From Acidobacteriota bacterium (lineage in GTDB: Bacteria > Acidobacteriota > Blastocatellia > Pyrinomonadales > Pyrinomonadaceae): a stretch of DNA of 39,276 nt. Positions 7,889-27,634 of the stretch are shown piece after piece (the first letter of the stretch is position 1; every line of letters begins with the position of its first letter). Position numbers and translations under genes: made by a program. Location of the stretch: contig JAIVJC010000014.1 in NCBI GenBank assembly GCA_020200235.1, forward strand, positions 1 through 39,276, in the 5' to 3' direction. Below the pieces are notes generated by a model, which ran no database searches, was not told the origin of the DNA, and was given only the letters and a program-made list of their open reading frames with translations.

Positions 7889-7931
7889 TCGACATCGCTG
7901 GCGCCGCCGATCCGACCGGCGCGTCGCGAGG

Positions 7932-7961: not shown

Positions 7962-7973
7962 TCCGAGGGTTCC

Positions 7974-8218: not shown

Positions 8219-9928
8219 ATGCCCACGCTAAGGATCGCCCGCATCGTCCTTATCATCTCCCTTGCCTGCGCGCCCGTCATCGCGCAGGCGCAGGGCGCAG
8301 CGCCACGTTACGGCGGCAGCATCGTCGTGGCGATCTCGTCTGATCCGGGCGGACTGAACCCCGCCATCACGACGCAGGGCGGCGTGACGACCATCTGCGG
8401 GTCGATCTTCAGCGGGCTCGTCGCGCACGACTTCAGCCTCAACCCCGTGCCCGATCTCGCCGAGAGCTGGGAGGTCTCGCCCGACGGCCGCGCTTACACC
8501 TTTCACCTCGCCCCCGGCGCGGTGTTCCACGACGGCGCGCCCGTCACCTCCGAAGACGTGCGCTTCACCTTCGAGGAGTTGCTGTTGAAGTACCACTCGC
8601 GGACGCGCGCGTCTCTCGGCGACAACCTGATCCGCATCGAGACGCCCGACGCGCACACGGTCGTCTTCGAGTTCAAGAGGCCCTACGCCGCCTTCCTCCA
8701 ACTTGTTGACGTGACGAACGCCCCCGTCATGCCGAAGCACCTCTACGAAGGGACTGACCCGCTCACCAACCCGCACAACACCGCCCCCGTGGGCAGCGGG
8801 GCTTTCAAGTTCGGCGAATGGCTCAAGGGCGACCACCTCACGCTCGTCCGCAACGAAAACTATTTCCAAAAAGGGAAGCCCTACCTTGATCGGATCCTCT
8901 ATAAAGTCATGCCCGCCGCCTCGATGGCCGCCATCGCGTTCGAGGGCGGCGAGGTGGACTACCTGACGGGCGCCGCGCCGCTCGACCTCGTGCGCCTGAA
9001 GAACGCGAGCGGGGTCGTCGTCACCGACAAAGGTCGCGAAGGGTTCGCCACCGTCGAGACCTTGATCCCCAACCTCACGCGCGCGCCGCTCTCCGACCCG
9101 CGCGTGCGGCAAGCGATGGCGCACGCGATTGATAAGAGCTACATCGTCGATAAGGTCGCGTCCGGGATGGGCGCGCCCGCCACGGGTCCCGTCTCAAGCT
9201 CGCTCGCGTGGGCGTACAACCCGAACGTCGTCAGGTACGAGCACGACGCCGCGCTCGCCGACCGCCTGCTCGACGAAGCCGGATACGGACGCGACCGCAG
9301 AGGCGTGCGCTTCCGCCTGAAGTTCGTCCACGCCGCCTCTTACGCGAAGGTGGCGGAGGCTCTGCGCGACCAATTGCGCGAGGTCGGCATCGCGGTCGAT
9401 CTCAACACGATGGAGTTTGCCGCGGCGGTGGATGCCGTTTACGTTAAGAAGGATTTCGATCTCGCGTTCGCCTCTTTCGAGAACGGGCCCGACCCCGACA
9501 TCGGCGTCAAGCGCACGCTCGTCTCATCGAACATCGGCGCGATCCCCTTCTCCAACGGCGCGGGCTACCGCGACGCGAGAGTAGACGAGCTGTTCGCGCT
9601 CGCCGCGTCCGAGACAGACCGGCAGAAGCGCGCCGCCCTCTACTTCGAGGCGCAGGACATCGTTGTCCGCGACCTGCCGTACTTCTGGCTCTACGAGCCG
9701 AGGTCGGGCGTCGCCTACAAAAAGGGCTTGCGCGGGATGTACGAGTGGAGCGCGAAGTCGTCGGTCTATTTCGCGCGGGACGCCTGGTGGGCTGACGGCG
9801 GGCGACACCAGCACGGCGCGGCTGGCGCGACCGCACGACGCGGGCTTTACCTGCTCATCGCCCTTGCCGTGCTCGCCTCGCTCGGCGTCACGGCGGTCTT
9901 GTTGAATCGAAGAAGGCGGAGAGCGTGA
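8219..9928 (+). CDS. ABC transporter substrate-binding protein, family 5 (peptide/nickel), with C-terminal TM anchor
   Basis: Start taken at MPTLRIARIVLIISLACAPVIAQAQG (signal peptide); YGGSIVVAISSDPGGLNP, LAESWEVSPDGRAYTFHLAPGAVFHDG; C-term LYLLIALAVLASLGVTAVLLNRRRRRA. Confidence 0.88.
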   Translation: MPTLRIARIVLIISLACAPVIAQAQGAAPRYGGSIVVAISSDPGGLNPAITTQGGVTTICGSIFSGLVAHDFSLNPVPDLAESWEVSPDGRAYTFHLAPGAVFHDGAPVTSEDVRFTFEELLLKYHSRTRASLGDNLIRIETPDAHTVVFEFKRPYAAFLQLVDVTNAPVMPKHLYEGTDPLTNPHNTAPVGSGAFKFGEWLKGDHLTLVRNENYFQKGKPYLDRILYKVMPAASMAAIAFEGGEVDYLTGAAPLDLVRLKNASGVVVTDKGREGFATVETLIPNLTRAPLSDPRVRQAMAHAIDKSYIVDKVASGMGAPATGPVSSSLAWAYNPNVVRYEHDAALADRLLDEAGYGRDRRGVRFRLKFVHAASYAKVAEALRDQLREVGIAVDLNTMEFAAAVDAVYVKKDFDLAFASFENGPDPDIGVKRTLVSSNIGAIPFSNGAGYRDARVDELFALAASETDRQKRAALYFEAQDIVVRDLPYFWLYEPRSGVAYKKGLRGMYEWSAKSSVYFARDAWWADGGRHQHGAAGATARRGLYLLIALAVLASLGVTAVLLNRRRRRA

Positions 9929-9931
9929 AAG

Positions 9932-10813
9932 TCAGGCGGGCTTGTCGAGGTGTTCGATCCGCGCGCGCGGATCGAGCGCGCGGTTGAGCGCGTCGCCGAC
10001 GGCGTTCAAGGCGAGGACGAGCAGGGAGATCGCCGCCGCTGGAAAGAAGATCATCCACCAGGCGTCGCGCATGAAGTGCTCTCCGTTGTGCAGCATGTAG
10101 CCCCAACTGATCCGGCTGCTGTCACCGAGCCCGATGAACCCTAAGCCCGCTTCGACCAGGATCACCGCGCCCACCGTCAGCATGACGTGAGTGATGACGA
10201 CGGGCAACGCGCTCGGCATGATCTCGCGCAGCAGAATACGTGCGTGCGTCGCGCCCACGGCGCGCGCCGCCTCGACGAACATCTTCCCCTTAACGGACAT
10301 CACCTCAGCGCGGACGAGGCGCGCCGTCGTGCCCCAGTAGGTGACGGCGAGCACCGCGATGAGGGTGTAGAAGGTCGAGCCGAAGAGGGCGGCGGCGACC
10401 AGCGCGAGGAAGAAGCGTGGCGGGATGAGAAAAAGCTCCGTCAGCCTCATCAACAGATCGTCCGTGCGCCCGCCCGCGTAGCCCGCCGTCGCGCCGACGA
10501 TCACGCCGATCAGACCGCTTGAAATGGCGACGCCGACGCCGATCAAGATCGACACCCGCGCGCCGTGGACGACGCCGCTGAACACGTCCCTGCCGAGGTC
10601 GTCCGTCCCGAAAGGATTTTCCGCACAGGGCGCGCGCAAGGTTTGCCCCGTAGTCTTCTGCGGATCACGCGGCGCGATCAGATCGGCGAAGACAGCCGCG
10701 AGTAGAAAGAGTGAGAGCACGACGAGACCGAACACAGCCGTCCGGCTCTGCCCGAAGCTTCGCCAGACGACTCGCCTTTCCGCCGCGCGGATGTCGCTCG
10801 CCTCTCGACTCAT
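9932..10813 (-). CDS. ABC transporter permease (DppC/OppC/NikC family)
   Basis: NPFGTDDLGRDVFSGVVHGARVSILIGVGVA; ARAVGATHARILLREIMPSALPVV EAA loop. Confidence 0.92.
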   Translation of the reverse strand: MSREASDIRAAERRVVWRSFGQSRTAVFGLVVLSLFLLAAVFADLIAPRDPQKTTGQTLRAPCAENPFGTDDLGRDVFSGVVHGARVSILIGVGVAISSGLIGVIVGATAGYAGGRTDDLLMRLTELFLIPPRFFLALVAAALFGSTFYTLIAVLAVTYWGTTARLVRAEVMSVKGKMFVEAARAVGATHARILLREIMPSALPVVITHVMLTVGAVILVEAGLGFIGLGDSSRISWGYMLHNGEHFMRDAWWMIFFPAAAISLLVLALNAVGDALNRALDPRARIEHLDKPA

Positions 10814-11817
10814 CTCTTGGGGAGCCCGTAGCTGATGCGCGGGTCGAGCGCGGAGTAAGTCAGATCGGTGATGAAGTTGACGGCGACGACGCCCACCGAC
10901 GACATGAGGAACAAGCCCATCAGAACGGGATAGTCGCGCATGGCGAGCGCGTCGACCATGAGCCTGCCGAGCCCGGGCAGCGCGAAGACCGTCTCGGTGA
11001 AGACCGCGCCGCCGAGGAGCATCCCGAAGTCGTTGCCGACGACCGTCACGACCGGCAGCAGCGCGTTTCGCAGCGCGTGAGCGTAGAGCACGCGCCGCTC
11101 GCCCAAACCTTTCGCGCGCGCGGCGGTGATGAAGTTCTCGCCGAGCACGTTCAGCATCGACGTGCGCGTCAGCCGCATGATCTGCGCGAGGTAGACGATG
11201 GCGAGCGTCGCGACCGGCAGCACGAGGTGCCGGAGCACGTCGAGCGCGTAATCGGCTCCCGCCAACTCCTGATTCGAGGAAGACAAGTTCTGCGCCGGGA
11301 ATAAGCCGAGGCGGAGCGAGAAGACGATGAGCAACAGATGCCCGATGGAGAAGGAAGGCACGGAGTAGCCCACCAACGCGAAGGTGTTGATCGCCCGATC
11401 CGCGAACGAGTTCTCACGCCGCGCGGCTTCGACGCCGGACAATACCCCGGCGACGGACGACAGGATCAGCGCGCTCACTATCAGCAGGAGCGTCGCCGGG
11501 ACGCGGCTCGCGATGACGGCGGCGACCGGCTGCTGGTAGCCGAGCGAGTAGCCGAGATTCCCGCGCAGCACGCCCGACAGGTAAACCCAGAGCTGCGTCG
11601 GGAGCGATCGATCCAGACCGAACTCTGCGCGGATGAGCGAGAAGTATTTCTCGTCGCCGCTCTGACCCGCGAGCAGGTGGACGGGATCGCCCGGCGCGAG
11701 ATGAATGAGTGAGAAGTTGACGACGACGAGCAATAGGATCAGGAGTAGCGACTGGGCGGCGCGGCGAAGCAGAAATCTGCCGAAGGGGCGCGAGGGTGAT
11801 CTCAATCGAACCTTCAT
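10810..11817 (-). CDS. ABC transporter permease (DppB/OppB/NikB family)
   Basis: FLLRRAAQSLLLILLLVVVNFSLIHLAPGDP; ARAKGLGERRVLYAHALRNALLPVVT; 4-bp overlap with the downstream permease. Confidence 0.92.
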   Translation of the reverse strand: MKVRLRSPSRPFGRFLLRRAAQSLLLILLLVVVNFSLIHLAPGDPVHLLAGQSGDEKYFSLIRAEFGLDRSLPTQLWVYLSGVLRGNLGYSLGYQQPVAAVIASRVPATLLLIVSALILSSVAGVLSGVEAARRENSFADRAINTFALVGYSVPSFSIGHLLLIVFSLRLGLFPAQNLSSSNQELAGADYALDVLRHLVLPVATLAIVYLAQIMRLTRTSMLNVLGENFITAARAKGLGERRVLYAHALRNALLPVVTVVGNDFGMLLGGAVFTETVFALPGLGRLMVDALAMRDYPVLMGLFLMSSVGVVAVNFITDLTYSALDPRISYGLPKR

Positions 11818-12314
11818 GCCCGCCCCCCGCCGTTCAGGCTCTCGATCAGCGACTCGATCCGGCTGACGGCGATCCCCACGGCGCCTCGCACCGGCTCACT
11901 CAACTCCGCGCCCAACTCGTCGTAGCCTTCGGGCTGGCAGCCGACGACGAACAAGCGCGGCGGCAAAACTCCGAGCGCGCGCGCGAGCGCGAGCACCTTC
12001 GACGGCTCCGTGTAGTGCGCGTCGGCGAGAGACGAGTGGAGTGCGTGCGCGTCGATTGCCGCCTGTGCCGGCACTTCCGGCTCGATCACGTAGAGCGTGC
12101 CGGGCGCGCCCCCGCGCTCGACCGCGTCGATGATGATGAGCGCGTCGTAGCCGTCCATCAGCTCCTGCACGAGCGGGATGCCGGCGATCCCCGACTCCAT
12201 GATCGTCACTCCTTCGGTGAAGATGTCGGCGCGCAGGAGCGTCTGCGCGACCTCGACGCCGAAGCCGTCGTCGCCGCGCAGGATGTTGCCGACGCCGGCT
12301 ATCAGGATTCTCAT
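11814..12314 (-). CDS. [NiFe]-hydrogenase maturation endopeptidase (M52; HyaD/HybD-like)
   Basis: MRILIAGVGNILRGDDGFGVEVAQ; LIIIDAVERGGAPGTL; DAHALHSS retains the expected D/D/H nickel-binding positions; 4-bp overlap with the downstream permease gene. Confidence 0.9.
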   Translation of the reverse strand: MRILIAGVGNILRGDDGFGVEVAQTLLRADIFTEGVTIMESGIAGIPLVQELMDGYDALIIIDAVERGGAPGTLYVIEPEVPAQAAIDAHALHSSLADAHYTEPSKVLALARALGVLPPRLFVVGCQPEGYDELGAELSEPVRGAVGIAVSRIESLIESLNGGGRA

Positions 12315-12430
12315 GATGATCGCGTAATGCGGACTCGCGAAATGGAAGGTAAATTGTAGCTTCCCTGTCCGCGCCCACGCATTCTACAATCCGCTCTCGG
12401 TTAATCCGCAATCCGAAACCATATTCCGCG

Positions 12431-14743
12431 ATGATCGTGCGCGTCCAAATTTTAGTCCGCGGGATCGTGCAGGGCGTGGGCTTCCGCCCCTTCGTCTACG
12501 CGGTCGCGACGCGCGAGTCGCTGCGCGGCACAGTCTTCAACACGGGCGGGGGCGTGCTCGTCGATGTCGAGGGCGACGGCGACTCGATAGAGAAGCTGTT
12601 GAGCGAGATCGAGCTCAACCCCCCGCCGCTCTCGCGCGTCGAGTCGGTGCGGCGCAGCGACGGACTGCCCCTCGCGCACTACCGCGACTTTCGCATCATC
12701 GAGAGCAGCCGCGACGGTGAGCAGTCTGTCGCCGTCTCGCCGGACGTTGCCACCTGCGCCGACTGTCTGCGCGAGTTGTTCGACCCCGCGGATCGACGCC
12801 ACCGCTACCCTTTCATCAACTGCACCAACTGCGGGCCTCGCTTCACCATCGTCGAAAGCGTCCCCTACGACCGCGCGCGCACCACGATGCGCGACTTCGT
12901 AATGTGCGCCGCGTGCCGCGACGAGTACCGTAACCCGCGCGACCGGCGCTTCCACGCCGAGCCCACCGCCTGCACAGCTTGCGGTCCCCGGCTCACACTG
13001 AAGGACGTGCGCGAGATCACGCAAGGTGAGTCGCGCGAAGACGATGGCGGGCGCAGTGATGATGCCGTCGCGCGCGCCCGTGCGCTGCTGTCGGACGGAA
13101 TGGTCGTCGCTGTCAAGGGGATCGGGGGATTCCACCTCGCCTGCGACGCGCTCGACGCCGACGCGGTCGGGCGTCTGCGGCAGAGAAAGTACCGTGAGGA
13201 TAAGCCGTTCGCCCTGATGGCGAACTCGCTCGAGGTCGTCAAAAAATTCTGCGCCGTCTCGGACGAGGAGGCGGCTCTGCTTTCATCCGCGGGTCGCCCC
13301 GTCGTCCTCCTCGAAAGAAAGTCTGGCGCCGCTCTGCCCGCAGCGGTCGCGCCCCGCGTCGGCACGCTCGGCTTCATGCTGCCTTACTCGCCGCTCCACC
13401 ACCTGCTCGTAGAAAATTCTGACCGGCCGCTCGTGCTGACGAGCGGTAACGTCTCCGACGAGCCCGTCTGTTACGAAAACGAAGACGCGGCTGAACGCCT
13501 GCGCGCCGTCGCCGATTATTTTCTGACGCACGACCGAAGGATCGAGACGCGCGCCGACGATTCCGTCGCCCGCGTCTTCGCAGGGCGCGAGATGCTGCTG
13601 CGCCGCTCGCGCGGCTACGCGCCCGCCCCCCTCGGCGTCGGCTTCGAGTTCACCCGCGAGATTCTCGCCTGCGGCGCGGAGTTGAAGAACACCTTTTGCC
13701 TTGCGCGCGACAGCTCCGCCTTCGTCAGCCACCACATCGGCGATCTGGAGAATCTGGAGACGCTGCGCGCATACGAGCACGGCATCGAACACTTCAAGCG
13801 GCTCTTTCATCTGCGCCCCGAAGTCGTCGCCTACGACCTGCACCCCGAATACCTCTCGACGAAGTACGCGCTCGCGCTCGATGATATCCAGACGAAGATC
13901 GGCGTCCAGCACCACCACGCGCACGTCGCGAGCTGCATGGCGGATAACGGGATCGACGGCGAGGTGATCGGCGTCGCGATGGACGGCCTCGGCTTCGGCG
14001 CGGACGGCGCGTTGTGGGGCGGCGAGTTCTTCGTCGCCAACTTCAAAGATGCGGAGCGCGTCGCGCACCTCGACTACGTGCCGCTGCCCGGCGGCGCTCG
14101 TGCCGTCCGCGAGCCGTGGCGCATGGCTGCCGTCTATCTGCAACGCGCCTTCGGCGATAAATTTTTGGAGTTAGACTTGCCCTCCGTCCGCAACCTGGAC
14201 GCGCGCTCGTGGTCGGCGATGCGACGAATGATCGAGACGAACACGAACAGCCCCCGCACGTCGAGCGTGGGTCGGCTCTTCGACGCCGTCGCGGGCATTC
14301 TTTCTCTGCGTGGCGTCGCCAACTACGAGGGACAGGCGGCAATCGAGTTGGAGGCGCTAGCCGAACGCGACTGCGCGCGGGGCTACGAGTTTGAATTAGA
14401 CGGGGACGGGAGTACGATTAACGCCGACCCGGTCATCAGGCGGGCGGTCGAGGACGTGCTCGAAGGCGCCCCCGCGGGGATCGTCTCCGGGAAGTTTCAT
14501 CTCGGCGTCGCGCATCTGATCGCGTCCGTCTCGCGCAAAGTCAGGGACGAGCGAAAGCTCGACCGCGTCGCGCTCTCCGGCGGCGTCTTCCAGAACGTGC
14601 TTCTGTTGCGGCACGCCTGCCGTCTGCTCAAGGCTGACGGCTTCGAGGTCTTCACGCACAGCCGCGTGCCCGCGAACGACGGAGGCATCTCGCTCGGTCA
14701 GGCGGCGGTCGCAAACGCGCGAATAGTTTCAGGGAGAATCTGA
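12431..14743 (+). CDS. hypF: Carbamoyltransferase HypF
   Basis: 770 aa; GIVQGVGFRPFVYAVA acylphosphatase domain, paired CxxC zinc fingers, VKGIGGFHLACDA, HHHAHVASCMADN, ALSGGVFQNVLLL. Confidence 0.97.
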   Translation: MIVRVQILVRGIVQGVGFRPFVYAVATRESLRGTVFNTGGGVLVDVEGDGDSIEKLLSEIELNPPPLSRVESVRRSDGLPLAHYRDFRIIESSRDGEQSVAVSPDVATCADCLRELFDPADRRHRYPFINCTNCGPRFTIVESVPYDRARTTMRDFVMCAACRDEYRNPRDRRFHAEPTACTACGPRLTLKDVREITQGESREDDGGRSDDAVARARALLSDGMVVAVKGIGGFHLACDALDADAVGRLRQRKYREDKPFALMANSLEVVKKFCAVSDEEAALLSSAGRPVVLLERKSGAALPAAVAPRVGTLGFMLPYSPLHHLLVENSDRPLVLTSGNVSDEPVCYENEDAAERLRAVADYFLTHDRRIETRADDSVARVFAGREMLLRRSRGYAPAPLGVGFEFTREILACGAELKNTFCLARDSSAFVSHHIGDLENLETLRAYEHGIEHFKRLFHLRPEVVAYDLHPEYLSTKYALALDDIQTKIGVQHHHAHVASCMADNGIDGEVIGVAMDGLGFGADGALWGGEFFVANFKDAERVAHLDYVPLPGGARAVREPWRMAAVYLQRAFGDKFLELDLPSVRNLDARSWSAMRRMIETNTNSPRTSSVGRLFDAVAGILSLRGVANYEGQAAIELEALAERDCARGYEFELDGDGSTINADPVIRRAVEDVLEGAPAGIVSGKFHLGVAHLIASVSRKVRDERKLDRVALSGGVFQNVLLLRHACRLLKADGFEVFTHSRVPANDGGISLGQAAVANARIVSGRI

Positions 14744-15093: not shown

Positions 15094-15789
15094 ATGACCA
15101 AGACGGCTGACGATTTTTCGCGCACCTTCTACCCGTTCCTGCACGGCGACGAGAAACAGTCGCGTGAGCTGACGGAAGGCTTGCGCTTCTCGCTCGCGGA
15201 AAAGGTGCGCGAGAGCGTAGGCGTGAAGTCGAAGTTCTTCGAGGAGAACGCGGACGCCATCCTCGCCGCGTCGCTCGCGATGGCGAAGGCTTTTCGTCGC
15301 GGGCGCAAGCTCCTCGTGTGCGGCAACGGCGGCTCGGCGACCGACGCGCAGCACATCGCCGTCGAGTTCATGCACCCCATCGGCGTGGGTCGCAAAGCCC
15401 TGCCCGCGATCTGCCTGGCGAACGACATGGCGATGGTCACGGCGGTCGCCAACGACGTGGGCTTCGACGACGTTTTCACGCGCCAGATCATCGCGTTGGG
15501 TTGCGAGGGCGACATCCTCCTCGGCGTCTCGACGAGCGGCAACTCCGAAAACCTGCTGCGCGCCTTCGCGACCGCGCGCCGGATGGGTCTCACGACCGTC
15601 GGGCTCGCCGGCGGCGACGGCGGCAAGATGTCAGAGATGTGCGCGCAGGGGTCGAGCGACTTCTGTCTGACCGTGCCCACGCCGAGCGTCCACCGGATTC
15701 AGGAGACGCACGTCGCGCTCTACCACATCATGTGGGACTTAGTACACGCCTTCTTGCAGCACGAGCCTTCGGTCGGCGGCGGCGAATAG
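15094..15789 (+). CDS. SIS-domain phosphoheptose isomerase-like protein (GmhA-like)
   Basis: LLVCGNGGSATDAQHIAVEF, LGVSTSGNSENLLRAFATARRMG, HRIQETHVALYHIMWDLV. Confidence 0.92.
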   Translation: MTKTADDFSRTFYPFLHGDEKQSRELTEGLRFSLAEKVRESVGVKSKFFEENADAILAASLAMAKAFRRGRKLLVCGNGGSATDAQHIAVEFMHPIGVGRKALPAICLANDMAMVTAVANDVGFDDVFTRQIIALGCEGDILLGVSTSGNSENLLRAFATARRMGLTTVGLAGGDGGKMSEMCAQGSSDFCLTVPTPSVHRIQETHVALYHIMWDLVHAFLQHEPSVGGGE

Positions 15790-15807: not shown

Positions 15808-16926
15808 ATGAAGTTCATCGACGAATACAGGAGCGGCGACACCGCGCGCAAGCTCGCGGGCGAGATCGCCCGGCTCGCGACGCGCCCGCTCAAGATCATG
15901 GAGGTCTGCGGCGGGCACACCCACACGATCTTCAAGTACGGCATCGAGGACTTGCTGCCCGACTCCGTCACGATGATCCACGGACCCGGCTGCCCCGTCT
16001 GCGTCATCCCGCTGGGGCGGGTTGACGACGCGATCTCGATAGCCTTGCAGTCCGGCGTCGTCTTCACCACCTTCGGCGACATGATGCGCGTGCCCGGCTC
16101 GAAGACGAACCTGCTCGACGCGAAAGCCAGAGGCGCGGACGTGCGGATGGTCTATTCGCCGCTCGACGCGCTGAAGATCGCGAAGAAGAACCCCGACAGG
16201 CAGATCGTCTTCCTCGCGCTCGGCTTCGAGACGACCTCGCCCTCGACGGCGTTGACCGTCCTGCAAGCGGCGAAAGACGGCGTGGAGAATTTCAGCGTCT
16301 TCTGCAACCACATCATGATCGTGCCCGCCCTGAAGGCGCTGCTCGACTCGCCCGACCTGCAACTCGACGGCTTCGTGGGTCCCGGTCACGTCAGCACGGT
16401 CATCGGCACGCGCCCCTACGATTTCGTCGTGCGCGAGTACGGCAAGCCGGTCGTCGTCTCCGGCTTCGAGCCGCTCGACGTGTTGCAGTCGGTTTACATG
16501 GTCGTCAAACAGACGGTCGAGGGGCGCGTCGAAGTCGAGAACCAGTACGCGCGCTGCGTGAGCCGCGGCGGGAACCTGAAAGCCCTCGAAGCTCTCTCGG
16601 AGGTCTTCGAGCCGCGCGACTATTTCGAGTGGCGCGGACTTGGCTCAATCGCTCACAGCGGGATGAGGCTGAAACAAAAATATGCGCGGTTCGACGCCGA
16701 GCGACGCTTCGACGTGCCGGGTCTTCGCATCGCCGACCCGAAGGCGTGCCAGTGCGGCGAGATTCTCAAAGGCGTGAAGAAGCCTTGGGAGTGCAAAGTC
16801 TTCGGCACGGCTTGCACGCCGGAGACGCCCATCGGCTCGTGCATGGTCTCTTCGGAGGGCGCGTGCGCGGCTTACTACAACTACGGGCGGCTGTCGAAGA
16901 TCGCCGGGCGCGCGGCGCAGACTTGA
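15808..16926 (+). CDS. hypD: Hydrogenase formation protein HypD
   Basis: MEVCGGHTHTIFKYGIEDLLP, HGPGCPVCVIPLGRVDDAI, GFETTSPSTA, C-terminal Cys-rich cluster region CQCGEILKGVKKPWECKVFGTACTPETPIGSCMVSSEGACAAYY. Confidence 0.97.
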   Translation: MKFIDEYRSGDTARKLAGEIARLATRPLKIMEVCGGHTHTIFKYGIEDLLPDSVTMIHGPGCPVCVIPLGRVDDAISIALQSGVVFTTFGDMMRVPGSKTNLLDAKARGADVRMVYSPLDALKIAKKNPDRQIVFLALGFETTSPSTALTVLQAAKDGVENFSVFCNHIMIVPALKALLDSPDLQLDGFVGPGHVSTVIGTRPYDFVVREYGKPVVVSGFEPLDVLQSVYMVVKQTVEGRVEVENQYARCVSRGGNLKALEALSEVFEPRDYFEWRGLGSIAHSGMRLKQKYARFDAERRFDVPGLRIADPKACQCGEILKGVKKPWECKVFGTACTPETPIGSCMVSSEGACAAYYNYGRLSKIAGRAAQT

Positions 16927-16960: not shown

Positions 16961-18088
16961 ATGACCGAGACATTCACTCCCAGCCCGCTCTTCCAGAGGG
17001 TCGAGCGCGCGCGCAGGAGAAAGCCGAACGTCAGGGACACGCACGTCACGCTCGCGCACGGGAGCGGCGGCAAGGCGATGCACGAGCTGATCGAGGGGGT
17101 GTTCCTCGAATATTTGGGGAACCCGATCCTGGATCGGCTCGAAGACCACGCCGTCCTGGAATTTTCACGCGCGGGCGGCGCGACCGACCGTGACGCTCCC
17201 GTCCGCCTGGCTTACGCGACGGACTCTTACGTCGTCACACCCATCTTCTTCCCCGGCGGCGACATCGGGCGTCTCGCCGTCAACGGCACGGTCAACGACC
17301 TCGCCGTGAGCGGCGCGCGCCCGCTCTACCTCTCCGCCGGCTTCATCCTCGAAGAAGGCTTCCCCCTCGAAGATTTGCGGCGCGTGCTCGCCTCGATGCG
17401 CGACGCCGCCGCCGAGGCGGGAGTGCAAGTCGTCACGGGCGACACCAAAGTAGTGCAGCGCGGCGGCGCGGACAAACTCTTCATCAACACTTCGGGCGTC
17501 GGCGTCATCGAGTCGCCCGTGCGGCTCTCCGCCTCGGGCGCGCGGGTCGGCGACAAGGTCATCCTGAGCGGCACGCTCGGCGATCACGGCACGACGATCA
17601 TGATCGCGCGCGGCGAGCTCGAACTGGAGACGGAGATCGAGAGCGACACCGCGCCGCTCGGCTCGCTCGTCCGCGACATGTTGGACGAGGCCTCGCGCGT
17701 CGCGTCGCTGGACGCGGTTCATTGTCTGCGCGACCCGACGCGCGGCGGCGTGGCGACGACCTTGAACGAGATCGCGCTCGCCTCCGAGGTTTGCATAGAG
17801 ATTCGCGAAGACCGCATCCCCGTGCGCGAAGAGGTGAGGGGCGCGTGCGAGATTCTGGGGCTCGAGCCACTTTACGTCGCGAACGAGGGCAAGCTCGTCG
17901 CCATCGTCTCCGCGGGAGTCGCCGACGCGCTCGTCGCGCGCATGCGGCAGAACGCCTACGGGCGCGACGCCCGCGTCATCGGCGAGGTGACGGCGGAGCC
18001 GCGGGGCATCGTCGCCCTCCGCACCGGATTCGGCGGCACGCGCATCGTGGACATGCTGGTCGGCGAGCAGTTGCCGCGCATTTGTTGA
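16961..18088 (+). CDS. hypE: Hydrogenase expression/formation protein HypE
   Basis: LAHGSGGKAMHELIEGVF, LAYATDSYVVTPIFFPGGDIGRLAVNGTVNDLAVSGARPLYLS; C-term GTRIVDMLVGEQLPRIC with the terminal Cys. Confidence 0.97.
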   Translation: MTETFTPSPLFQRVERARRRKPNVRDTHVTLAHGSGGKAMHELIEGVFLEYLGNPILDRLEDHAVLEFSRAGGATDRDAPVRLAYATDSYVVTPIFFPGGDIGRLAVNGTVNDLAVSGARPLYLSAGFILEEGFPLEDLRRVLASMRDAAAEAGVQVVTGDTKVVQRGGADKLFINTSGVGVIESPVRLSASGARVGDKVILSGTLGDHGTTIMIARGELELETEIESDTAPLGSLVRDMLDEASRVASLDAVHCLRDPTRGGVATTLNEIALASEVCIEIREDRIPVREEVRGACEILGLEPLYVANEGKLVAIVSAGVADALVARMRQNAYGRDARVIGEVTAEPRGIVALRTGFGGTRIVDMLVGEQLPRIC

Positions 18089-18270: not shown

Positions 18271-19068
18271 ATGAAGATTGCGATCAGCGGCAAAGGCGGT
18301 TCGGGTAAGACGACCATCTCGGCGACGCTCATCCGGCTCATCGCCCGGCGCGGTCTGTCCGTCCTCGCCATCGACGGCGATCCCAACCCGAATCTCATTC
18401 AAGCCCTCGGCGTCGGTCCCGGCGTGGAAGCCGAGTCGGTTCCGCGCAGCGTCGTCGAGCGGCGCGAGGACGAGACGGGCGCGACCCGCCACGTGCTGAC
18501 GCGAAGCATCGCGGACATCGTCAGTCAGTACGGGATGAAAGCGCCCGACGGCGTGACGGTCTTAGTCGGCACGAAGGTTGACCACGCCGGCGCGGGTTGA
18601 CTCTGCGGCGCACACGCTGCCGTGCGCAGCATCGTCGGCGAGATCGTCAACCACGCGGAAGGCGTGACCGTGATGGACACGGAAGCCTCCATCGAGCACA
18701 TGAGCCGTGGCACGGTCAGGTACGTCGACGCGCTGCTCGTCGTGCTCGAACCTTATTACCGCTCGATGGAGACCGCCGGGCGCACCGTGCCTCTCGCGCG
18801 GGGCCTCGGGATCGAGCGCGTCTACGGCATCGCCAACAAACTCCGCAGCCCGCAGGACGCCGAGGCGGTCGAAGCCTACTGCCGCAACCACGGTTTAGAG
18901 CTGATCGCAAAGATACCGTTCGACGAGAACGTGGTCGAAGCCGACCGGACGGGTCGTGCGGTGATCGATTACGACGCGACCTCTCCCATCGTCGAAGAGT
19001 TGTCGCAAACTGCCGATTTTCTGCTGCGCGAAGTCAGAGTCAACGGCGACCGAGCCGGAGGAGACTGA
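18271..19068 (+). CDS. CooC/MinD-like P-loop ATPase (putative nickel chaperone), interrupted by an in-frame TGA at 18598-18600
   Basis: MKIAISGKGGSGKTTISATLIRLIARRGLSVLAIDGDPNPN ... VGTKVDHAGAG-[TGA]-LCGAHAAVRSIVGEIVN...VMDTEASIEHMSRGTVRYVD. The downstream ORF (18622) is in the same frame as 18271 (offset 351 nt). Confidence 0.8.
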
Positions 19069-19069
19069 G

Positions 19070-19378
19070 ATGCTCAGAAACATGGACACCACGACGATCT
19101 GGACTTACTCGCTCATCGCGGGCGCGGTAGTCATCGTGATCGTCGCCGCCTTGCTCATCATGCTCATCGCGGCGGCGAACCGCGTGAACAAGAACGCGAG
19201 CCACATCTGGGACGCGGGCAAACAGATCGCGGGCAACACCGTCTCGATCTGGATGCTGAATGTCACGAACCGCGTCGCGGGGCAGATTCTGGAGACCGCG
19301 CAGTCGATCAACGCGCGCGCCGAGTCGATTGACAACAACATCGCCGCGCTTGGCAATGCGCTCGCGCCGAAGAGGTGA
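19070..19378 (+). CDS. Small single-TM / coiled-coil membrane protein, type A1
   Basis: 102 aa; TM SLIAGAVVIVIVAALLIMLIAAA then NTVSIWMLNVTNRVAGQILETAQSINARAESIDNNIAALG. Confidence 0.8.
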   Translation: MLRNMDTTTIWTYSLIAGAVVIVIVAALLIMLIAAANRVNKNASHIWDAGKQIAGNTVSIWMLNVTNRVAGQILETAQSINARAESIDNNIAALGNALAPKR

Positions 19379-19696
19379 GTGATGCGACTACTGACATGGC
19401 TGACGGTCATCTACCTCGTCGTGCTGGTGCTCGCGCTGGCGGTAAGCCTCATCACGATCTGCTACTACCTCTGGCGCATCGGCAGCGCGCTCGCCGAGGT
19501 CAAGCGCGGGCTGATTCAGGCGCGGGAGAACACTGCGCCTTTGGAGGGGCACCTGGAATTCATCAACGGCGGGCTGACCGGGGTCGGCGAAGGGCTCGGA
19601 TCGGTCGACGCGCACCTCGCCGGGGTTAACGAGAGCCTGGAAGCGGTAGCGGCGCACCTGGGGATTGCGGAATTCGGATTGCGAATTGCGGATTGA
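19379..19696 (+). CDS. Small single-TM / coiled-coil membrane protein, type B1; C-terminus encoded by a repeat arm
   Basis: 105 aa; TM VIYLVVLVLALAVSLITICYYLW then LEFINGGLTGVGEGLGSVDAHLAGVNESLEAVAAHL; tail GIAEFGLRIAD is repeat-derived. Confidence 0.78.
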   Translation: MMRLLTWLTVIYLVVLVLALAVSLITICYYLWRIGSALAEVKRGLIQARENTAPLEGHLEFINGGLTGVGEGLGSVDAHLAGVNESLEAVAAHLGIAEFGLRIAD

Positions 19697-19744
19697 AAAG
19701 ACGACTGCCTACTTCTTGAATCCGCAATCCGAATTCCGCAATCC
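19662..19744. repeat. Heptad-related inverted repeat overlapping the 3' end of the B1 gene
   Basis: GGATTGCGGAATTCGGATTGCG (19662-19683) is exactly complementary to CGCAATCCGAATTCCGCAATCC (19723-19744). Confidence 0.9.
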
Positions 19745-19759
19745 GCAATGGAGGGAGCT

Positions 19760-20065
19760 ATGGACACCGCAATCATCGTCGTCTGGTGGGCGACTCTGCT
19801 AGTCGCGCTCGTCCTGACGGCGGTCATCCTGAAACTCGTGTTCCTGATCGTGCGGACGGAACGCGACATCTTGCAGCTCGCTTCGACGACACTCGCGGCG
19901 GCTCAAGGCATCGTGCGGAACACCGCGTTGATTTCGGAGTTGGAGACGACGCGGGGCGTGGCGGGGAAGATTCTCTCCGTCGCCGGGGCGATTGACGCGG
20001 GGTCGGCTTCGATAGAGGGGAAGCTGCGTTCAGTCGGGGGCGCGCTCACCGGGGGGAGGTCGTAA
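19760..20065 (+). CDS. Small single-TM / coiled-coil membrane protein, type A2
   Basis: Start at MDTAIIVVWW preferred (GAGGGAG RBS; the ATG at 19748 abuts the repeat); NTALISELETTRGVAGKILSVAGAIDAGSASIEGKLRSVGGAL resembles A1. Confidence 0.78.
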   Translation: MDTAIIVVWWATLLVALVLTAVILKLVFLIVRTERDILQLASTTLAAAQGIVRNTALISELETTRGVAGKILSVAGAIDAGSASIEGKLRSVGGALTGGRS

Positions 20066-20067
20066 CG

Positions 20068-20358
20068 ATGGCTCTGCTGCTGACGATCCTGACGGCGCTG
20101 CTCGCCGCGGCTCTGGTGATCGCGTTAGTCGTGTCGCTCTTCATAATTTTGCGGACGCTCCAATCGGTGCGAAGGCACATCGAGAAGATCAACTGGGGCG
20201 TGCGCGCGATCGAGAAAGAGACCGAGATGCTCGGCGGGGTGGCGACCTTGAACGGCGGCTTGACGGCGCTCGCGGGCGGGCTGGAATCCGTCGCCACGCA
20301 CTTCACCAACGTGGATCGTAACGTCGGGACGGTTGGCGAAGCTCTGCTACGTGGATGA
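20068..20358 (+). CDS. Small single-TM / coiled-coil membrane protein, type B2
   Basis: 96 aa; TM LLTILTALLAAALVIALVVSLFIIL then LNGGLTALAGGLESVATHFTNVDRNVGTVGEAL resembles B1. Confidence 0.8.
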   Translation: MALLLTILTALLAAALVIALVVSLFIILRTLQSVRRHIEKINWGVRAIEKETEMLGGVATLNGGLTALAGGLESVATHFTNVDRNVGTVGEALLRG

Positions 20359-20387
20359 CGCTTGGGGTCGGTGAGAGGGAACACACG

Positions 20388-21770
20388 ATGGGCGAGATTC
20401 CTGAGAAACACGTCGGCGAAGCCGGTCATCACAAACAGCGCGAATCCTCGACGATGGGGCTGCCGGATCAGGTGGGCAACGTCGCGCGCCGCACGATGGA
20501 AGAGCTGGCGGAAGACATCTGCGCCTCGCAGGGCAAGAGTAAATTCAGTCTCGGCCCGTTGGAGAAAGTCTACGTCTTCTGGCTCGCCGGGATGAGTTGC
20601 GACGGCTGCACCGTCTCAGTCAGCGGCGCGACGGAGCCCGCGCTCGAAGACCTGCTGACCGGCTCGATTCCCGGCGTGCCGCTCGTCGTGCTGCATCATT
20701 ACGTCCTCCAACTGGAATCCGGCGATCACTACATCCAAACCTTAATCAACGCCGAGCAGGGCAAGCTCGACGGCCCTTACGTCTTGGTTTACGAGGGCTC
20801 GATACCGGACGAGAACTTGACCGTCGGCGGCGAGCCGTTCGCCGGCGAGGGATCGCTCCCGCTGTGGGCTCCGAGCGACGAGCGCAGGCGCGTCTCGACC
20901 GCCGAGTGGATGAAGCGGCTGGGACCCGGCGCGGCGGCGTCTATCGCCATCGGGACGTGCGCGACGTGGGGCGGCATCCCGGCGGCTTACGGCAACATCA
21001 CCGGCTCGATGAGCCTGATGGATTGGATGGGCAAGGATTACCGCAGCGCGCTGGGGCTGCCCGTCATCAACATTCCGGGCTGCGCCCCCGTCGGTGATAA
21101 CTTCACCGACGCGGTGCAGGCGATCCTACTTTTTCTGCAAGGCTTGGGACCGCTGCCGGAGTTTGACGAACTGGGTCGCCCCGCGTGGCAGTTCTCCGAG
21201 ACGGTGCACACGCACTGCGTCCGCGCGGGCTTCTACGAGGAGGGCACTTTCGCGAAAGAGTACGGCGACAAGGAATGTCTGGTCGAGATCGGCTGCTGGG
21301 GCCCGGTCGTCAACTGCAACATCACGGAGAAGGGCGCGATCTCGCACATGGGCGGGTGCATGAACTCCGGCGCGCCCTGCATCGGCTGCACGATGCCCGG
21401 CTTCCCCGACAAGTTCTCGCCGTTCTACAAGGCGCCGCCCGGCTCGCTCGTGTCGAGTAATGCCTCGCGCCTGCTCGGCTCGGTCGTCCGCAACCTGCGC
21501 CGCATCAGCCAGCGCGAGCGCAACCGCGAGATACGCTGGCATGACACGGTGCCCTCGGGCTGGGCGATGGAACGGGGCGGCACGTCACTCACGCACAAGA
21601 TTCTCGAAGTCTTCTACGAGGCGATGCAGTTTCAGGGCGGGAAAGCTCCCGAACGAGACCCGCAGAAAAAGTTTCCAACGGGGTATCAGAGTTTGCCTGA
21701 TCGCGTCTACACCAAAGACTATCAACAACTGCCTGAGGATCGTGTGCTGAAGACGGAGAAGAGGGTGTAA
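20388..21770 (+). CDS. hhyS: [NiFe]-hydrogenase small subunit, group 1h-like
   Basis: VFWLAGMSCDGCTVSVSGATEP, IGTCATWGGIPAAYGN, INIPGCAPVGDNF, GCMNSGAPCIGCTMPGFPDKFSPF; no Tat signal; start 20388 chosen over 20355 because of a GAGAGG RBS. Confidence 0.93.
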   Translation: MGEIPEKHVGEAGHHKQRESSTMGLPDQVGNVARRTMEELAEDICASQGKSKFSLGPLEKVYVFWLAGMSCDGCTVSVSGATEPALEDLLTGSIPGVPLVVLHHYVLQLESGDHYIQTLINAEQGKLDGPYVLVYEGSIPDENLTVGGEPFAGEGSLPLWAPSDERRRVSTAEWMKRLGPGAAASIAIGTCATWGGIPAAYGNITGSMSLMDWMGKDYRSALGLPVINIPGCAPVGDNFTDAVQAILLFLQGLGPLPEFDELGRPAWQFSETVHTHCVRAGFYEEGTFAKEYGDKECLVEIGCWGPVVNCNITEKGAISHMGGCMNSGAPCIGCTMPGFPDKFSPFYKAPPGSLVSSNASRLLGSVVRNLRRISQRERNREIRWHDTVPSGWAMERGGTSLTHKILEVFYEAMQFQGGKAPERDPQKKFPTGYQSLPDRVYTKDYQQLPEDRVLKTEKRV

Positions 21771-21985: not shown

Positions 21986-22251
21986 TGGCAACGCTGCCCG
22001 TCATCTCAGGCGAGGCGGCACTTCGTGCTTTTGAACGCGCAGGTTGGAGTCGCGCCCGGCAAAAAGGAAGTCATGTTTCAATAGTCAAGCCCGGAGTCGA
22101 TTACACTGTCCATCTCGCTAACGACGTGATCGCCTTCCTCCTGCAAGCCTTGATCGTGCTACCGACGCTCATCGCCTGCGGCTTCCGGCCGGGTCTGGGG
22201 CTTCAAGGCAAAACAATGAACGCGGCTCGCAAAGGAGAGCAATTAAAATGA
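21985..22251 (+). pseudogene. hicA: HicA-like toxin, C-terminally replaced/truncated
   Basis: LPVISGEAALRAFERAGWSRARQKGSHVSIVKPGVDYTVHL is HicA-like; the following ANDVIAFLLQALIVLPTLIACGFRPG... does not look like a HicA C-terminus; 1-nt overlap (TGATG) with hicB. Confidence 0.7.
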
Positions 22252-25200
22252 AGCTCGACATGAGAAAGTTATTGGCAGTCGCCTTGTGGTGTCTCACCGC
22301 GGCAACGCTCGGACAGGCGCAGTCCATCAACGGCAGAATTGTGGGCACGGTCACCGACGCGAACGGCGCGGCTATCCCGAAGGCCGCCATCACCGTCACG
22401 AACGAAGGGACGGGCAGCGAACGGCGCGTCGAGGCGGATGAGGACGGCACATATGTCGTCGCCGAATTGCCCGTCGGGTTGTACACGATCAAGATCGAGG
22501 TCCCGAATTTTGCCGCGACGAACAGACCGCACGTGAAGGTGGATGTCGGGGCGGAGACGCGCGTGGACGTGCCCCTTTCGGTGCAGGGCGTGGCAGTCGG
22601 CGTCACCGTGCAGGATCAAGCGCCGGTGTTGCAGAGCGACAGCAGCGCGTTGGCGGAGGTCATCAGCACACGGCAAGTGCTGGAACTGCCGATCAATGGG
22701 CGCGACTTTCGGCGCTTGACGACGATCACGCCGGGCGCAGCGCCGCGTTCGCAGCGCGGCTCTCTTGGTTCGTTCACGGTCAACGGGCAGCGCGAGAAGT
22801 CGAACATTTTTTTGATCGACGGCGTGGATAACAACGACTCGTTCCGCAACCAGCCGTCGTTTAATCAGGGCGGCGTGACGGGCGCGCCCGCGACGCTCTT
22901 CCCCGTGGACGCACTGGGCGAGTTCAGCATTCAGACGCAAGGAGCCGCCGAGTACGGGCGCAACTCCGGCGCGGTGCTCAACATCGTCGTCAAATCCGGC
23001 ACGAACGAGTTTCACGGCAGCGCCTACGAGTTTCTGCGCAACGACAATTTCGACGCGCGGAATTTCTTCGAGACGAAGCGGAATGAGTTCAAGAATAATA
23101 ATTTCGGCGGCGTCCTCGGCGGCCCCCTGGTGCCGAACCGCACGTTCTTTTTCGCCGGCTACGAGGGGCAGCGCGAGACCGTCTTCTCGCCTTTCGCCGT
23201 GCGTGTGCCTTCCGCTCTGGACATCGCCGCCGCCCGCGCCGCCAACGCCGCCGCCGGCCGCGCCGAGAATCCGTTGAGCACACGCCTGCTCGCCCTCTTT
23301 CCAACTGAAAACAGCGCCGCCGCCACCGGCAACAACTACTCTTTCGGCGCGCCGAACAGCAACCGGAGCAACAATTTTCTGGCCAAGATCGATCACAGCA
23401 TCAACGACAAGTTGAACATGAGCGGACGCTACATCTTCGGGCAGGGCACGCAAATCTTTCCGCTCACAAGCGGTAACGGGTCGCCGCTCCCGGCCTATCA
23501 GACGGTCGTCCCGACGCGGATTCAACTCGTCGGTTTGAACCTGCCCTACATCGTCACGCCGAGCGTGATTAACGAACTGCGGCTGAGTTACAACCGCTTC
23601 ACGCAGGGGTTCACGACGCTCGATGGCAGCTTCGATCCGACGAGCGTCGGCCTCAACACCGGCCTGACGACGGGCGGGCTGCCGACGATCTTGGTCAGCG
23701 GTTTCGTCCCGCTCGGCGCGCCGAATAACATCCCGCGCTCGCGCGTCAGCAGCGCCTATCAGGTGGTGGACAACGTGACGTGGACGACGGGCGCGCACAC
23801 ATACAAGTTCGGCGCTGAGTACCGCCGCCCGCTCGTTAATTCCGTCAACGATACCTTCAAGCGCGGGCAGATCAACTTCACCAGCCTCGCCAACTTCCTC
23901 GCCGGCAGCCCTTCGCCCGGCAGCACCGTCATCCTGCGCGGCGGGACGCGCCGCGACACCTACACGCACAACGTCGGCCTCTTCGTGCAGGACGATTGGA
24001 AAGTTAATCCGCGCCTGACGCTCAATCTGGGCTTGCGCTACGAGTACACCGGCGTCTTCGCGGACGCGCACAAACGCATCTCGAACTTCGTGCCGGGCAC
24101 GGGGCTGGTGCAGGTCGGCGATGCCAAGCTGCCTCGTCTCTACAACCGCGACCTGAATAACTTCGCGCCGCGTCTGGGCTTCGCATATGATCTGACCGGC
24201 AAGGGCAAGACCGTGCTGCGCGCCGCTTACGGCATCTATTACGATGCGCCGTCGCAGGACTTCTTCCTCGCGCACAGCTTCCAGAACGGCGGCCCCGGCA
24301 GCGTCGGCAACAACTTCCTGCCCGCCATCGGCACTTTCAACGTCACGTTCCCCTCGACGGCGACAGTGCCGTTCGGTCCCGGCGTCGCGATCTTCCCCGG
24401 CACGACCGCGCCGCCCACGCCCTTCCCCATCTTCGGCGCTGATCTAAACCTGCGCACGCCTTACGTCCAGAGCTACAACGTCAACCTGCAACACACGTTG
24501 AGCGCCGCGACGGTCGTGCAAATCTCTTACGTCGGCTCGTTGGCCCGGAAGTTGTATCGTGTGCGCGACATCAATCAGGCCGTGCCCGGCGCGGGCAGCG
24601 CGCAGAGCCGGCGGCCCTTCAACGCGCAATTCCCGCAGTACAGTTTCATCAACTATTTCGAGACCTCGGCCAACTCGAACTACAACGCCTTCCAGACCTA
24701 CCTCCGGCAACGCATGTCGCGGGGCTTGACCCTGTTCGCTTCCTACACCTGGTCGAAGTCCATTGACGACGCCTCGAACGGCATCTACGGCGGCACGCGC
24801 GGCGTCTCTTTCCCGCAAGACAGCTTCAACGCGCGGGCCGAGCGGGCGCTGTCGAGTTTCGACGTGCGCCACCGGCTCAGCGTCAACTTCGTTTATGATC
24901 TGAAATTTCTCCCGCACGCGCTCGAAAGTCTGCCGCAGCGTTTGACGGAGGGGTGGCAGTTGAGCGGCATCTTGACATCATCGAGCGGCATCCCGATCAC
25001 GCCCTTCATCAGCACGGACGTGAGCCTGACGGGTGAACTGAACGACCGGCCCAACGTCATCGGCGACATCTACGCGGGCGGGCGCACGGTCGCTGCGTGG
25101 ATCAACCCCTGCGTCCTGAGCGCCACCGGCGCGCGGCTAAGCGGTTGCCGGCCAGGCGATATACCGGCGTGGCAGATTCCTGCCGCCGGCACGTTCGGTA

Positions 25201-25472
25201 ACGCCGGGCGCAACATCATCATTGGGCCGCGCTCCAACATCTTCGACTTCTCGGTCAACAAAAACACGAAGCTCAACGAGCGCGTCACGGTGCAGTTCCG
25301 CTCCGAGTTCTTCAACATCTTCAACCATCCGAACTTTGCGCTGCCGAACGTGCAGGCGAACGCCGCCACCTTCGGCGCGATTGGCACCACGCCGGACGTT
25401 GACGCCGGCAACCCGCGTCTGGGCGACGGCGGGCCGCGCGTCATTCAATTCGGCATCAAGGTGATCTTCTGA
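22248..25472 (+). CDS. TonB-dependent receptor / Oar-like outer membrane protein with N-terminal carboxypeptidase-regulatory-like domain
   Basis: 1074 aa; signal peptide, GRIVGTVTDANGAAIPKAAITVTNEGTG, plug VLELPINGRDFRRLTTITPGA, FLIDGVDNNDSFRNQ, C-terminal VIQFGIKVIF; RBS AAGGAG. Confidence 0.92.
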   Translation: MKLDMRKLLAVALWCLTAATLGQAQSINGRIVGTVTDANGAAIPKAAITVTNEGTGSERRVEADEDGTYVVAELPVGLYTIKIEVPNFAATNRPHVKVDVGAETRVDVPLSVQGVAVGVTVQDQAPVLQSDSSALAEVISTRQVLELPINGRDFRRLTTITPGAAPRSQRGSLGSFTVNGQREKSNIFLIDGVDNNDSFRNQPSFNQGGVTGAPATLFPVDALGEFSIQTQGAAEYGRNSGAVLNIVVKSGTNEFHGSAYEFLRNDNFDARNFFETKRNEFKNNNFGGVLGGPLVPNRTFFFAGYEGQRETVFSPFAVRVPSALDIAAARAANAAAGRAENPLSTRLLALFPTENSAAATGNNYSFGAPNSNRSNNFLAKIDHSINDKLNMSGRYIFGQGTQIFPLTSGNGSPLPAYQTVVPTRIQLVGLNLPYIVTPSVINELRLSYNRFTQGFTTLDGSFDPTSVGLNTGLTTGGLPTILVSGFVPLGAPNNIPRSRVSSAYQVVDNVTWTTGAHTYKFGAEYRRPLVNSVNDTFKRGQINFTSLANFLAGSPSPGSTVILRGGTRRDTYTHNVGLFVQDDWKVNPRLTLNLGLRYEYTGVFADAHKRISNFVPGTGLVQVGDAKLPRLYNRDLNNFAPRLGFAYDLTGKGKTVLRAAYGIYYDAPSQDFFLAHSFQNGGPGSVGNNFLPAIGTFNVTFPSTATVPFGPGVAIFPGTTAPPTPFPIFGADLNLRTPYVQSYNVNLQHTLSAATVVQISYVGSLARKLYRVRDINQAVPGAGSAQSRRPFNAQFPQYSFINYFETSANSNYNAFQTYLRQRMSRGLTLFASYTWSKSIDDASNGIYGGTRGVSFPQDSFNARAERALSSFDVRHRLSVNFVYDLKFLPHALESLPQRLTEGWQLSGILTSSSGIPITPFISTDVSLTGELNDRPNVIGDIYAGGRTVAAWINPCVLSATGARLSGCRPGDIPAWQIPAAGTFGNAGRNIIIGPRSNIFDFSVNKNTKLNERVTVQFRSEFFNIFNHPNFALPNVQANAATFGAIGTTPDVDAGNPRLGDGGPRVIQFGIKVIF

Positions 25473-25670: not shown

Positions 25671-27527
25671 ATGTGCTTCAAGAACCTTCCGGTCGAGTTT
25701 GACGCTCAGGGCAACGCGCACCTCAAAGGCGGGGTCGTTGACCCTTACGCTTACAAGCCGCGAGAGATCAAGCGCGACAAATTAGAAGAGCTGCTCGCGC
25801 GCAACGGGCACATCAAGGACGTGAGCATCTCGCCGGTGACGCGCGTGGCGGGTGCGCTCTCGTTCCACGCCGTGGCGGATTTGCAAGAGCGGAAGTTTCT
25901 CGAAGCCAACTCGGTCGCGACCATCTTCCGCGGCTACGAAGTGATCCTCAAAGGGCGCGACCCGCGCGACGCCATCTACATTTCGAGCCGCGCCTGCGGC
26001 GTGTGCGGCGGCGTCCACTCGACCGCCGCGTGCGAAGCCATCGAGATGGCTTTCGGGATTTCGCCGCCGCCACTCGGCACCGTTTTGCGCAACCTCGCGC
26101 TCGCGCTCGACTTCCTCTACGACCACCCGCTGCACCTCTTCCTGCTCGCGGGTCCCGACTACTCGCAGGTCGTCGTCCAGGCGACGAGCCCCGCGATGTG
26201 GGAGAAGGCTACGCGCACGGAAGCCCCGAACGCCGAGGTTCACCAGTTCAAGACCATCGGCGACATCATGAAGGGGCTCAACCCGCTCTCCGGCAAGTTG
26301 TACCTCGACGGGTTGAAGATGACGCGCACGCCGCGCGAGGCATACTCCGTGCTCTTCGGCAAGTACCCGCACCCGCAGACGGTCGTGCCCGGCGGTATGT
26401 CTTCGACGGTGACGATCACTGACTTCAACGAGACCTACACGCGGCTCCAGAAGATGATCGACTGGACGAAGCGGATGATCCTGCTCTGGGACGATCTCAC
26501 CGAGTTCTTCTACGAGTACAACCCCGAATACAAGAAGGTCGGCGCGCGCGCGGCGAACATGATCGACCTCGGCATGTGGGACGACGAGAACTCTTACGAC
26601 GCCAGTTATGCGCGCTGCAACGAGTGGGGCGAGAAACGTTCGGTCATCGACGGCCAACTCGTCACGACGAAGCTACAGCAACTCAACCTCGGCCTCGAAG
26701 AGTTCGTCGAACACTCTTACTACGAAGACTGGAATCAGAACGGCAAACAGCGGTTCGCGACAGACCCTTCGGGCGCGCCGCTCTCGCCGAACCACCCGTG
26801 GAATAAGGAGACTCTGCCGAAACCTTCGAAGGAGAGCTGGAAGGATCGCTACACTTGGGACACCGCGCCGCGCTGGGACAGGCAGGTGGTCGAGGCCGGG
26901 TGCTACGCGCGTATCTGGACGACGGCCGCCGCCGGGCTGATGCCGAAGAACGAGTTTCTCGAATCCACCGGCCACAGCCTTAAGTTTCACATGCCGAAGA
27001 CGATGCTGCGCGCGATGGACTTCGAGTGGAAGATTCCCACGTTGTGGAACGCCTTCGAGCGCAACCGCGCGCGCGCCTACTGCATGGGCTACAACCTGAT
27101 GGTCGCCTACACGATGGTCTTGAAGGCGTTCGATCTCTTGCGTAAAGGTGAAGACAAAGTGAGCACGAAGTTCGAGGTGCCGATGGGCGAGCGGATCGGC
27201 GTCGGCTTCTGGGGCGCGGGGCGCGGCTACCTCTCGCACCACCTGACGCTCGACAAGGGCGCGATCACGAACTACCAGATCGTCACGCCCTCGACCTTCA
27301 ACGCCTCGCCGAAAGACCCGTTCGGCAACCCCGGTCCCTACGAGGAGGCGGTCTTGAACACGCCGATCCTCGAAGACTTCGACAAGCCCTCGGACTTCAC
27401 AGGCGTCGACATGCTCCGCGCCATCCGCAGCTTCGACCCCTGCATGCCCTGCACGACGCACATCTACGGCGGCGAGCGCGAGATCGTGCGCGAGGTCAAC
27501 ACCTGCGCCTGCTCAGCCGAAGGCTGA
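25671..27527 (+). CDS. hhyL: [NiFe]-hydrogenase large subunit, group 1h-like
   Basis: 618 aa; ISPVTRVAG, SSRACGVCGGVHSTAACEAIEMAFG (L1), FDPCMPCTTHIYGGEREIVREVNTCACSAEG (L2 plus tail). Confidence 0.95.
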   Translation: MCFKNLPVEFDAQGNAHLKGGVVDPYAYKPREIKRDKLEELLARNGHIKDVSISPVTRVAGALSFHAVADLQERKFLEANSVATIFRGYEVILKGRDPRDAIYISSRACGVCGGVHSTAACEAIEMAFGISPPPLGTVLRNLALALDFLYDHPLHLFLLAGPDYSQVVVQATSPAMWEKATRTEAPNAEVHQFKTIGDIMKGLNPLSGKLYLDGLKMTRTPREAYSVLFGKYPHPQTVVPGGMSSTVTITDFNETYTRLQKMIDWTKRMILLWDDLTEFFYEYNPEYKKVGARAANMIDLGMWDDENSYDASYARCNEWGEKRSVIDGQLVTTKLQQLNLGLEEFVEHSYYEDWNQNGKQRFATDPSGAPLSPNHPWNKETLPKPSKESWKDRYTWDTAPRWDRQVVEAGCYARIWTTAAAGLMPKNEFLESTGHSLKFHMPKTMLRAMDFEWKIPTLWNAFERNRARAYCMGYNLMVAYTMVLKAFDLLRKGEDKVSTKFEVPMGERIGVGFWGAGRGYLSHHLTLDKGAITNYQIVTPSTFNASPKDPFGNPGPYEEAVLNTPILEDFDKPSDFTGVDMLRAIRSFDPCMPCTTHIYGGEREIVREVNTCACSAEG

Positions 27528-27631: not shown

Positions 27632-27634
27632 CCT

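Follow-up and report, generated by a model that had tools for sequence, protein, structure and literature searches.

HypA and HypB are the usual nickel insertase of hydrogenases, and Ni-CODH is the usual client of CooC. In CooC1, the nickel chaperone of CO dehydrogenase in Carboxydothermus hydrogenoformans, the interface of the dimer has a site for Zn or Ni formed by Cys112 and Cys114, which takes one nickel per dimer with a Kd of 0.4 μM (PMC6006190). Among the 119 prokaryotic selenoprotein families and subfamilies catalogued in 2026, none is of the CooC type and none has a U-x-U motif (PMC13188914). Our literature search, which covered open-access papers only, so that others could still hold one, returned no selenocysteine (Sec)-containing CooC, no UxU motif and no group 1h selenoprotein. 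Here, a CooC-type gene with an in-frame UGA, cooC-U, is described from a [NiFe]-hydrogenase cluster; this apparently broken gene very probably encodes a new kind of selenium protein. Our preferred reading, to which we assign a probability of about 0.86 on the sequence evidence, is that cooC-U encodes a full-length selenoprotein, a SIMIBI ATPase of the CooC type with a Sec110-x-Cys112 site, that would bring nickel to the hydrogenase in place of HypA/HypB.

The window analyzed, that is, the whole stretch of 39,276 nucleotides, carried cooC-U at positions 18271–19068 of the forward strand. Its frame ran from an ATG at 18271 through a TGA at 18598–18600 (codon 110) to the next in-frame stop, a TGA at 19066–19068. 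Read through, it yielded a protein of 265 aa with ...DHAGAG-U-L-C-GAH... around codon 110, in which the putative Sec110 is followed by Cys112 (TGC, 18604–18606), identified by sequence and homologue comparison as the second residue of the U-x-C. Ordinary annotation would split such a gene or call it a pseudogene. Pfam placed the product among the P-loop ATPases of the CbiA/NifH type (CbiA and Fer4_NifH), with a deviant Walker A motif, GKGGSGKTT, encoded at 18289–18315. The best PDB match was Carboxydothermus CooC1 (3kje, E = 1e-28), which was also the top PDB match by fold of the AlphaFold model; the metal-site loop was the least certain part of that model (pLDDT < 50 for residues 106–110). 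The SIMIBI/MinD-type ATPase fold and deviant Walker A of the CooC family were both present, and the metal site was present as U-x-C, codon 110 aligning with the first Cys (Cys112) of the C-x-C in CooC1. These results bear out the first-pass annotation, which had placed an in-frame TGA at the first Cys of a CooC CxC motif. No NCBIfam model fitted the protein above its cut-off, and the HypB GTPase family (TIGR00073) was not among the families matched. Genome-wide reassignment of UGA was rejected, because cooC-U and its neighbor hypE both terminate with TGA.

The first-pass annotation had proposed either a selenocysteine candidate in a CooC-like ATPase or a precise nonsense mutation, and had raised the questions of whether homologues carry Cys at this codon and whether the source genome encodes Sec machinery. 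A nonsense mutation or sequencing error would have split a Cys-type CooC gene, leaving a dead protein or two fragments, and a single change of TGT or TGC to TGA would suffice. Damaged genes do exist in such bins: the copy in genome G021 (L030/L184) had lost ∼30 codons and was shifted in frame after residue 143, which points either to decay of this copy or to misassembly. Against this explanation, the same codon was TGA in 19 distinct copies from two phyla, Acidobacteriota and Chloroflexota. A search of the window's own genome and those of its relatives, 97 in all, found the gene in nine, where each copy covering codon 110 had one TGA there and identity ranged between 58% and 91%. Further TGA copies were found in GTDB genomes (L034–L039) of Acidobacteriota, one other bacterium and a Chloroflexi bin, and a survey of 400 Chloroflexota genomes added five carriers of U-x-C along with three close relatives that have C-x-C. 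Nearly all UGA carriers were metagenome bins; the same TGA recurred in many independent assemblies, which takes the place of a re-call of the codon from raw reads. No relative was detected in the viral contigs searched.

Distant homologues in GTDB genomes of Bacteroidota, Gammaproteobacteria, archaea, Deltaproteobacteria and others had TGC or TGT, i.e., Cys, at exactly this position. In the tree, the hydrogenase-linked clade was supported and separate from other CooC, and the Sec and Cys states interchanged at least 4–5 times. Values of dN/dS were mostly 0.1–0.25 both 5′ and 3′ of the TGA, which indicates that purifying selection acts on cooC-U downstream of the UGA; synonymous-codon conservation 3′ of the UGA was only suggestive (eight sequences, p = 0.03). 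Barring one artefact common to all assemblies, this conservation refutes damage to the gene, an explanation that we regard as extremely improbable. The nonsense mutation is thereby excluded, and the selenocysteine candidate is supported by the conserved TGA, the distant Cys homologues and the Sec machinery.

A candidate apical hairpin of a bacterial SECIS element was found at 18616–18630 of the forward strand (GCUGC-CGUGC-GCAGC), with a 5-bp stem (18616–18620/18626–18630) and a 5-nt loop, CGUGC (18621–18625), that starts 20 nt after the UGA. Its loop, stem and spacing agree with published bSECIS rules (PMC13188914). Chloroflexota versions read GCCAC-CGUGC-GUGGC or GCCGC-CGUGC-GCGGC, and the loops GGUUC and GGUCC also occurred. 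Across 18 distinct sequences, 96.7% of cells were paired and two pairs had changed on both sides (16 cells), while none of 500 shuffles was as good and positions slid along the alignment paired at 10–49%. RNAalifold, run unguided, predicted exactly the hairpin at 18616–18630. Homologues without the TGA were the better control, because related sequences can exceed such shuffles: the full stem with a GU loop occurred in 16 of 19 UGA copies vs. none of 83 comparison homologues without TGA, a set that includes a few degenerate or shifted stretches of the L185 locus. In the other three UGA copies, not all five pairs were formed at this site. That the covarying hairpin is confined to TGA copies is a second argument against a mutated or misread Cys gene.

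Constrained folding of the 45 nt gave −8 to −26 kcal/mol across copies and −16.9 for the window's own; folded freely, the latter favored a different hairpin by 2 kcal/mol. Single-sequence folding against shuffles revealed no excess stability of the hairpin and was uninformative here. The first-pass annotation had noted a weaker hairpin at 18608–18613/18622–18627 and no canonical SECIS loop. The former does exist in the window sequence; it was not conserved, with 71% of cells paired and zero compensatory changes, and was rejected as a SECIS. The latter statement is superseded by the conserved hairpin at 18616–18630.

Most of the Sec machinery was found in the window's own genome, namely SelA (E = 7e-132), SelD (349 bits) and a tRNA-Sec with a TCA anticodon (69.6 bits). 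SelB was not found in this bin (87.6% complete, 258 contigs) and was present in a genome of the same genus. The SelD gene of the bin (L017, G000:C226, 509–1492) had an in-frame UGA of its own (NCAG-U-AAK), and is thus a second selenoprotein of the same bin; SelD with Sec is a known selenoprotein type. Among the 14 UGA genomes tested, SelB was detected in 12 and tRNA-Sec in 13 (SelB was missing also from G059, and tRNA-Sec from the L038 genome), and all five genomes tested with only the Cys form lacked both, these counts leaving out the Chloroflexota carriers G203, G168, G232, G243 and G323 and the Chloroflexota Cys genomes. Machinery was also present in four relatives without cooC-U (G001, G003, G008, and G009), so the Sec trait predates this gene and is more widespread.

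This distribution also bears on whether the UGA is a true stop, with a polypeptide of residues 1–109 and a second one restarted at the GTG at 18622 assembling as a split ATPase. A GTG codon does lie 21 nt past the UGA. It is also part of the SECIS loop, which accounts for its conservation. Such a split would leave the metal site without either of its ligands, every distant homologue listed has Cys where codon 110 lies, and across genomes the UGA goes with the Sec machinery. We therefore consider a split ATPase very unlikely. Under the selenoprotein reading, a ribosome reaching UGA 110 would find SelB, recruited with its Sec-tRNA(UCA) by the hairpin at 18616–18630, and Sec would be inserted.

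Two loci carried TGA at both Cys positions, which is difficult to reconcile with chance damage to a Cys codon. These copies, in L054 (8891–9775, G-U-T-U-G) and L055 (9337–10149, G-U-N-U-G), came from two different Chloroflexi, were 75% identical to each other, and each stood behind a C-x-C paralogue; both genomes had SelB and tRNA-Sec. The tandem CxC and UxU paralogues lay within Chloroflexota hydrogenase clusters (L054, 8001–9775; L055, 8001–10149), and in L055 a gene for a MerR-like regulator apparently stood between them. A mixed CxC/UxU dimer is possible. A third case was a U-P-U-C copy in L185 with a strong hairpin of its own, CCCGAGC-AGUU-GCUCGGG. This locus (7900–12720), from one Chloroflexota genome, held four CooC-like genes. 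Besides the UPUC copy with its hairpin there were one with UTC, one lacking CxC and, on the opposite strand, one with ULC that appeared to be frameshifted.

The window's cluster was ordered hypF, a SIS-domain gene, hypD, hypE, cooC-U, four small ORFs, the small subunit, a TonB-type protein, the large subunit, a protease and a NifU/Rieske gene. The maturation genes, on the forward strand, were hypF (12431–14743, Pfam HypF domains), hypD (15808–16926, PF01924, 538 bits) and hypE (16961–18088, AIRS/AIRS_C), with the SIS-domain protein (15094–15789, forward), a conserved neighbor, recognized by domain search and locus comparison. Downstream on the same strand, the four small ORFs (19070–20358) were conserved in relatives and had no Pfam match above cut-off, one of them weakly resembling DUF948. 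They were followed by the [NiFe]-hydrogenase small subunit (20355–21770) and large subunit (25671–27527), a maturation protease of the HycI type (27533–28123, by domain search) and the NifU/Rieske-domain protein (28120–29061, by domain search and locus comparison), all forward. Hydrogenase genes adjoined cooC in nearly all loci, in UGA and Cys forms alike.

Both subunits were closest in the PDB to Ralstonia HofGK, a group 1h enzyme (5aa5; HofK, E = 8e-98; HofG, E = 1e-146). Translation gave Cys, not Sec, in the nickel motifs of the large subunit. The small subunit, which has a long C-terminal extension, had CDGC where the Ralstonia enzyme has CDGD, a Cys for Asp in the proximal cluster motif. 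The group 1h operon named at first pass is thus matched in its closest structure and departs from it at this residue, so that the 1h assignment is tentative. The TonB-dependent-receptor-like outer membrane protein between the subunit genes (22248–25472) looks inserted in the window, because the subunit genes are adjacent in L177, L178, and L184. Upstream of hypF, an extracellular solute-binding protein (SBP_bac_5) and two Opp-type permeases (8087–11817) are possibly a nickel or peptide importer. Contigs of equal length, carrying the gene at identical coordinates, occurred in two bins that belong to different genera (G000:C250 and G002:C339) and were identical over the stretches compared; G002 held a second cooC-U copy, 91% identical. 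One of the two bin assignments is likely wrong, which makes the genus of the window's host uncertain.

Twenty-one of the 27 carriers, and the window's own genome is one of them, had no match to HypA or HypB above the cut-off, so that what had been noted from the window, namely no visible hypA or hypB, holds for the entire assembly. Likewise, Ni-CODH (TIGR01702) had no match in 26 of the 27, again including the window's; cooC-U is therefore a CooC-type ATPase by sequence, and not a CODH maturation factor. Both the HypA/HypB pair and Ni-CODH being missing from most carriers, and a CooC-type ATPase standing in the hydrogenase cluster, nickel insertion is its likely job. The simplest reading is that the cooC-U clade loads nickel into [NiFe]-hydrogenase.

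A genuine selenoprotein might instead handle Zn, Cu or an Fe-S metal, or have a redox or regulatory role in the cluster. Zn is a competitor for the CooC site, tight Ni binding is not common to all CooC (PMC6006190), MinD/NifH-like ATPases are functionally diverse, and some carriers do have HypA/HypB: both coexist with the gene in G006 (∼11 kb away), G026, and G232, so their replacement is not universal. However, this clade has no Ni-CODH to serve and sits beside genes for a nickel enzyme, and most carriers have no other known nickel insertase for their hydrogenase. We judge such another task unlikely, though less so than a split or damaged gene.

In the preferred reading, a nickel-loading selenoprotein, two monomers would dimerize around one Ni(II), held as in CooC at the interface, here by two selenolates and two thiolates. 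ATP binding or hydrolysis would then hand the nickel over to the large subunit of the [NiFe]-hydrogenase from the same cluster, after HypD, HypE, and HypF have built the Fe(CN)2CO part, and the product of cooC-U would stand in for the missing HypA/HypB pair. Selenium may confer a benefit such as recovery from oxidation. We lean slightly towards selenium being a nickel ligand of a dedicated hydrogenase insertase that displaces HypA/HypB, with the UxU proteins of some Chloroflexota either building an all-selenolate site or pairing with the neighboring CxC protein in a mixed dimer.

We rate cooC-U as a candidate new family of selenoproteins that falls within an established group, the CooC-type ATPases. 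The class of metallochaperone ATPases would gain a selenoprotein family in which Sec would coordinate the metal being carried, and UxU, with a single residue between two Sec, would add a motif missing from the 2026 catalogue. The cluster is that of a hydrogen-oxidizing enzyme, the UGA was seen likewise in many related bacteria, and the findings point to HypA/HypB-independent nickel loading of [NiFe]-hydrogenases. The protein resembles CooC1 (3kje) in its fold, deviant Walker A and C-x-C ligand spacing at the dimer interface (PMC6006190), and differs in that its first ligand is predicted to be Sec rather than Cys, and in standing beside a [NiFe]-hydrogenase and hyp genes, CODH being missing in 26 of 27 genomes. 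It probably does the job of the HypB/HypA pair, at the same step of the pathway; unlike HypB, it is an ATPase of the MinD/NifH type and not a GTPase, and hypA/hypB are absent from most carriers. A UGA at a conserved Cys with a bSECIS behind it and, in the genome, most of the Sec machinery is shared with the SO_0444 Cu/Zn transporter (UxC), the CobW-related selenoprotein (UxxC) and SelD. A proposed selenium ligand for nickel in a hydrogenase system recalls the [NiFeSe] hydrogenases; in those, Sec is in the active site of the enzyme itself, whereas here the large subunit has Cys and the Sec would reside in the chaperone.
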